Positions 1 to 520 of a DNA stretch of 36,479 nt are shown piece by piece; position 1 is the stretch's first letter; each line of letters opens with the position of its first letter. The stretch comes from Chlorobiota bacterium (GTDB taxonomy: Bacteria; Bacteroidota; Ignavibacteria; Tepidaquicellales; OLB5): NCBI GenBank assembly GCA_022616535.1, contig JAKEEM010000027.1, forward strand, positions 1-36,479, given 5' to 3'. A model generated the notes under the pieces. It did not search any database and was not told the origin of the DNA. It was given only the letters and a program-made list of their open reading frames with translations. A program made the translations under genes and the position numbers.

Positions 1-18
1 AATTGTGCCACCACTGAC

Positions 19-49
19 TTGACATTTTAAAATTGATATAGTAATTTTG
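19..49 (+). promoter_or_regulatory. FCB-type promoter of the structured RNA
   Basis: TTGACA at 19-24 and TAATTTTG at 42-49 are separated by 17 bases. The second box is a perfect match to the Bacteroidota -7 consensus TAnnTTTG, and the TTG of the first box lies at the usual -33 distance. Transcription should begin near 55, directly before the structured RNA. Seen in sequence; activity is inferred. Confidence 0.6.
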
Positions 50-54
50 CCACG

Positions 55-520
55 CTTGGTTCAACAGCGGCTGGAGGGCTGCTGCAGGTTACCAGTCCGA
101 TGCTGTGTAAAAGCAGTTCGGACGGGCGATGAGCCGTTCCGCCGCCTCTAAAGGGCGGGATTTGTACAACTGGCCAAGCTTTGGTTCAGGGAGTACCTTC
201 ACGACGCATGGGGTATTCCGGCCGTGACGAAAGCAGGGCTTCCTGAGCGACGACTCTAAAGTATAAGACTGTGCTTCACTCACGCCCGGCTAGTGTGAGA
301 TTTTTGAAAGGACCGTTGCTTGTCCCGAATTTATTTCGGGAATCAGGCATGGCTCCAAAGCTTATACTTTATTGTCCCCCGGGCAATCGGGGCGAGTCTC
401 CAACAGTCAAGTATAGCTGCCAACTCACAAGGTAAGCTCACGAGGCAGGCAGGAGTCACAATCCCACTTTCAAAAACCGTCTTCGGACGGAACTTAAATC
501 CTCCATGGAGGTATTTTTTT
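55..520 (+). ncRNA. large structured noncoding RNA, family uncertain
   Basis: About 465 nt, GC-richer than its surroundings and full of pairing. Stems seen: 95-104/113-123 (GTCCGA-TGCT with AGCA-GT-TCGGAC); 187-193/239-245 (CAGGGAG/CTTCCTG); 199-203/223-227; 323-329/335-341 (TCCCGAA/TTCGGGA); 377-381/388-392 (CCCCG/CGGGG); and long-range 258-267/361-370 (10 bp, AAAGTATAAG/CTTATACTTT) next to 252-256/394-398 (GACTC/GAGTC), which closes a multibranch domain. A promoter precedes it and a terminator follows. It lacks the conserved cores of RNase P RNA, tmRNA, 6S and SRP RNA. Elements such as AAGCTTTGGTTCAGG and AACTCACAAGG remind me of HEARO/IscB omega-RNAs, but that rests on memory and no IscB gene is in view. 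Confident that it is an RNA gene, not of the family. The two short ORFs over it look spurious. Confidence 0.72.
477..520 (+). terminator. double-hairpin terminator of the structured RNA
   Basis: A UUCG tetraloop hairpin (CCGTC-TTCG-GACGG, 477-490) is followed by a second palindromic hairpin (CCTCCATGGAGG, 500-511) and seven T residues (514-520). This fits an intrinsic terminator for the RNA transcribed from about 55. Confidence 0.65.

Follow-up and report, generated by a model that had tools for sequence, protein, structure and literature searches.

The window (the whole stretch of 36,479 nt analysed here) begins with a predicted gene for a structured non-coding RNA of about 465 nt, whose relatives are dispersed over the draft genome of its host, a Chlorobiota bacterium. 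The locus is best viewed, with modest confidence, as one gene of a lineage-restricted, co-regulated and trans-acting family of about 16 large structured ncRNAs. The comparison of the copies shows a conserved fold with compensatory changes. The features on which this view is built are the following:

1-2, + strand: last bases of a palindrome, the remainder of which lies beyond the contig end
19-49, + strand: promoter, with TTG 19-21 within TTGACA 19-24 (-33 region) and TAATTTTG 42-49 (-7 region)
54-520, + strand: structured ncRNA of about 465 nt, recognised by its fold, its covariation and its paralogues
54-179, + strand: 5' domain of type A, with a proposed closing helix GCUUGG 54-59 / CCAAGC 174-179
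184-192 with 240-248, + strand: helix P2, with double-sided changes in 5 pairs
199-203 with 223-227, + strand: inner helix, with double-sided changes in 3 pairs
252-376, + strand: long-range helix, GAC 252-254 / GUC 374-376 and AAAGUAUAAG 258-267 / CUUAUACUUU 361-370
268-271 with 404-407, + strand: crossing pair ACUG / CAGU (AUUG / CAAU in copy C72)
279-284 with 294-299, + strand: hairpin, with double-sided changes in 4 pairs
415-458, + strand: conserved 3' domain, GCUGCCAACUCACAAGGUAAGCUCAC..GGCAGGCAGGAGUC
477-490, + strand: variable hairpin CCGTC-UUCG-GACGG
500-511, region to 520, + strand: intrinsic terminator hairpin CCUCC-AU-GGAGG, then the U tract TATTTTTTT

Promoter, terminator and limits of the RNA

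An earlier note, made from the letters of the window alone, had described a large "orphan" structured RNA with its own promoter, a 10-bp long-range pairing and a double-hairpin terminator, and had proposed a search for copies, a covariation test and an Rfam scan. The promoter is indeed present, and its -7 element reads as the Bacteroidota type TAnnTTTG. It is near-identical in 16 upstream flanks of the RNA family, and in six of these flanks every available base (up to 62 nt) agrees with the start of the window. Both terminator hairpins and the U tract were likewise found, and a U-A pair of the terminator stem is swapped for A-U between copies. The predicted 5' end of the RNA is placed from the promoter and its 3' end from the terminator. 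The stretch thus delimited is about 52% GC, in surroundings of about 34-43% GC. Coding potential was rejected because no frame is consistently open across the copies: they share no coding frame, and the stop-free runs differ per frame and copy.

A-rich low-complexity tails (TCAAATATCAAATAGTAAA-like) lie 3' of the terminators, at 521-600 in the window and in the 3' flanks of most copies. Comparable stretches are also present at other places of the genome that lack the RNA, and T-rich stretches found 5' of the promoters resemble the complement of these tails.

Copies dispersed in the genome

The blastn search of the 2.9-Mb genome returned 30 matches to the RNA, which correspond to about 16 copies by their distinct upstream flanks; the count of 3' ends is about equal. 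These copies are carried by contigs C13, C17, C20, C21, C24, C29, C30, C33, C41, C47, C55, C62, C66, C67, C70 and C72, while C51 carries a 3' fragment only. Where a copy could be read completely, the RNA measures 365-514 nt and always has promoter sequence and terminator sequence.

The first base of the window is the end of contig C48, and contigs C20, C47 and C66 (on their left) and C30, C55 and C62 (on their right) end in the promoter sequence of the window start. The RNA family is therefore a main cause of the breaks in the assembly, and the upstream neighbour of the window copy cannot be told from it, as the six contig ends are identical to the window start.

An artefact of binning, assembly or repeats that means nothing biologically is the least probable of all the explanations considered, to the point of being negligible. 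It could draw on the draft state of the genome (77 contigs) and on the location of most copies at contig ends, but the copies of C24, C41, C70 and C72 are internal to their contigs and refute it for these four. Moreover, the flanks of each copy differ, and assembly errors do not make compensatory changes.

The copies occupy different intergenic sites, and the neighbours examined are ordinary, unrelated genes: the C41 copy has a MATE transporter gene on one side and a TetR gene on the other, nadA is near the copy of C70, ispD near that of C72 and a DUF1508 gene near that of C24. The window copy lies near genes for an LVIVD-repeat protein and an aminotransferase, and a protein with a sorting tail is also found among the neighbours of the family. 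The RNAs look like individual transcription units placed at unrelated sites. The term "orphan" holds in the sense that no partner gene stands beside the copies with examined neighbours, but not in the sense of a single gene.

Fold and covariation

The folding energy of the window RNA is -174.4 kcal/mol, versus -152.7 kcal/mol for dinucleotide shuffles (z -3.3). Seven other copies were folded in the same way: five have z values of -2.6 to -4.4, C24 of -2.5 and C9L of -0.9. Covariation was judged among paralogues of this one genome, using two alignments and 33 pairs counted in 5 helices. In the first (A2), 8 copies were aligned by sequence alone, and only one of them, C21_C8, joins two contigs in the modelled core, via an exact 86-nt overlap. 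In A2, 95.3% of cells are paired and 14 of the 33 pairs show double-sided change; none of 500 shuffles reaches 14 pairs, and the slid controls stay at 3 pairs or fewer. The second alignment, of 14 copies and without any joined sequence, was made with a covariance model and so leans to the model. Here 96.3% of cells are paired, and double-sided change again affects 14 of the 33 pairs, in 31 cells, the aligned copies forming perhaps 4 sequence groups so that independent events are fewer than cells. No shuffle out of 500 matches these values; in slid controls, there are at most 3 such pairs and 5 cells, and paired cells drop to 34-53%. Fold energy beyond that of the shuffles and covariation far above both types of controls bear out the earlier claim of a structured RNA, and the proposed covariation test thus found compensatory changes.

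The clearest covariation is that of helix P2, which reads UCAGG/CCUGA in the window, CUUAAG/CUUAAG in C28 and CCGG/CCGG in C72. In the short copy C72 the interior of the P2 domain, with helix 199-203/223-227, is deleted. The long-range helix, whose 10-bp arms (258-267 and 361-370) are 93 nt apart, has 97.5-100% of its cells paired, with double-sided change in 2 pairs and one-sided changes (GC/GU-type) in several; the long-range pairing of the earlier note is therefore backed by covariation. Within the 5' domain, the upper stem of hairpin 95-123 varies while its pairing is preserved. The 5' end of the RNA is invariant among type-A copies, and in C41 and C70 this domain is swapped for an unrelated sequence that has its own hairpin. 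The ACUG/CAGU crossing pair might tentatively be a pseudoknot or an alternative pairing, one C-G being swapped for U-A. Its group-I-like reading was dropped because strand order and loop lengths are unlike those of P3/P7 and because there is a single compensatory change.

Short GC-rich hairpin repeats (CCTGCCTGC-type and CCCGCCTCAGGCGGG) are found in peripheral loops of copies C21, C28, C58 and C70 or beside them. By the look of these inserts, it is as if small palindromic repeats had landed in the RNA genes.

Upstream palindrome and duplicated unit

A palindrome, TTCACCTCAT-N9-ATGAGGTGAA, or a near copy of it is located directly upstream of the promoters of the family and is degenerate in C70. 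An example is C30:25586-25612, the last 62 nt of C30 being identical to window positions 1-62. Most occurrences of the palindrome precede RNA copies, and it is absent from 58 relatives. Its spacing to the -33 box differs by 11-12 bp between promoter subtypes, i.e. about one helical turn, as would be expected of a protein-binding site, and this suggests that a protein stays on one and the same side of the DNA helix.

Four lone palindromes, CACCTCAT-N9-ATGAGGTG, occur without the RNA (C52:1368-1395, C64:5401-5428, C47:24729-24756 and C72:31016-31043). A promoter-like TTGACA..TAAATTTA comes after the one from C47, and no obvious gene start after the three others. A second, often degenerate palindrome is located about 230 bp before the promoter of the C17, C67, C70 and C72 copies, where it adjoins GTCAAGTCA (TGACTTGAC on the other strand); it may mark a divergent promoter or the end of an older element.

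Homology between copies extends about 270-300 bp upstream of the promoter, which indicates that the copies arose at the DNA level. As dispersal to about 16 sites needs a copying route, the mobile-element RNA suggested by the earlier note keeps some plausibility. The main rival explanation, which we consider unlikely, is a non-autonomous, MITE-like mobile cassette of about 0.75-0.9 kb (upstream block, RNA and A-rich tail), the RNA of which would be selfish or involved in mobility rather than the product of a host gene. The dispersion of the copies at unrelated sites, the inclusion of the upstream block in the homologous unit, the absence from relatives and the other short hairpin repeats inserted in the RNA and its flanks are all consistent with such a cassette. 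However, no sharp end, terminal repeat or target-site duplication came to light, none of the examined neighbours was recognised as a transposase gene, and the A-rich tail is also present at sites devoid of the RNA. The conservation of promoter, operator spacing, fold and terminator altogether argues for a function.

Relationships with known RNAs and distribution

Rfam searches with the window and 5 other copies, at permissive E-values up to 10, gave no credible match to any family, including HEARO, introns, OLE, ROOL and GOLLD. The one intron-type hit, to GIR1 at 12 bits, falls on sequence that does not belong to the RNA.

The earlier note had suspected a HEARO/IscB omega-RNA-like molecule. 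That the RNA is the guide of an RNA-guided nuclease (HEARO/IscB omega-RNA or TnpB reRNA) is highly improbable, even if a large structured RNA whose partner gene is not obvious nearby would fit. The covariance model of HEARO (RF02033) has no match, both ends of the RNA are conserved among copies, the 5' end included, so that no variable guide is seen, and the TnpB Zn-ribbon PF07282 is absent from the genome (control positive in 6 genomes). No IscB (RRXRR/HNH) gene was found among the neighbours examined, and the RRXRR/IscB domain (PF14239) was not detected in the genome by a search whose control was silent too, which makes it the weak point of this argument. With HEARO/IscB omega-RNAs (RF02033; PMC9755519), the likeness is limited to a large structured RNA; the family differs from them in sequence and structure, in having no nuclease gene among the neighbours examined and in having no guide segment.

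It is equally doubtful, to a very high degree, that the family derives from a group I/II intron, a retron or another retroelement. The long-range helix and the possible crossing pair superficially recall intron cores, but no credible intron match was obtained from Rfam (E up to 10), no reverse transcriptase was found in the genome (control positive in 3 genomes) and the duplicated unit reaches upstream of the promoter, which points to copying at the DNA level.

Outside the genome, blastn found no match to the RNA in 58 relatives, nor in phages and plasmids. The covariance model found none in three overlapping sets: 98 relatives, 390 genomes from the class and 394 from the phylum. The larger genome scans use stricter filters that distant relatives could escape. 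Hits of 17-18 bits in two relatives are below the threshold, extend over a portion of the model only and were attributed to chance. Scans of GTDB and IMG/VR demand an exact motif; the first gave 3 hits, none of which the covariance model supports, and the second gave chance hits that do not exceed 19.6 bits. Covariation, the lack of any Rfam match and the lack of any relative in these searches lend support to the new ncRNA class that the earlier note had envisaged.

A model for the RNA family

Under the favoured reading of a co-regulated gene family, we infer function, co-regulation, high dosage, trans action and gene conversion, and the following model can be drawn. A dimeric transcription factor would bind the palindrome and switch the whole RNA family on or off. 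Many genes expressed simultaneously would provide a fast and high dose of RNA. The RNA would then act in trans through its folded core, as a protein-binding or protein-sequestering RNP, or alternatively would pair with mRNAs through invariant stretches such as CAACUGGC, GAGUA, GACGAC and CUUCAC. Sequence exchange (gene conversion) between copies would keep promoters and cores alike while the peripheral hairpins drift. Weighing against this reading, some palindromes are lone, without the RNA, and the dispersal to about 16 sites would also fit a mobile cassette.

To our knowledge, large structured bacterial ncRNAs are normally single-copy, and multicopy RNAs of bacteria, if rRNA and tRNA are set aside, are short. 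A covarying RNA of about 460 nt with about 16 promoter-bearing copies and seemingly one operator suggests that large, regulated amounts of it are needed. A bolder proposal, put forward here as a tentative one, is that of an undescribed class of large bacterial RNAs, amplified within a single lineage to about 16 genes under common control. Its gene dosage would resemble that of rRNA, and it might form a new, abundant RNP or an assembly made of RNA alone. With so many paralogues in one genome, a ready alignment exists for the study of its structure.

Sibling sRNAs of the Qrr, csRNA or LhrC type are about 100 nt long and act by base pairing. Qrr, the Cia-dependent csRNAs and LhrC are present in 2-7 copies under one regulator (PMC4211561, PMC4132741). 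As in these systems, several near-identical RNA genes have a common regulatory input, which suggests dosage; here, however, there are about 16 copies of a large RNA with extensive folding. OLE, ROOL and GOLLD are large ornate bacterial RNAs, mostly of unknown role (PMC12286853), and resemble the family in size, high degree of structure and long-range pairing, but their Rfam models do not match it and it has many copies in one genome. The closest precedent is FopS of Bacteroides thetaiotaomicron, a set of 14 paralogous sRNAs of about 65-70 nt expressed from sigma-ABfr promoters, which carry an antisense seed near their 5' end and pair with mRNA starts (PMC11697453). Both are lineage-restricted sets of paralogous ncRNAs dispersed in one genome with their own promoters. 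The RNA described here differs from FopS by its length (about 460 nt), its multi-helix covarying core, its long-range helix and its upstream palindrome, the latter giving a handle on the regulator.
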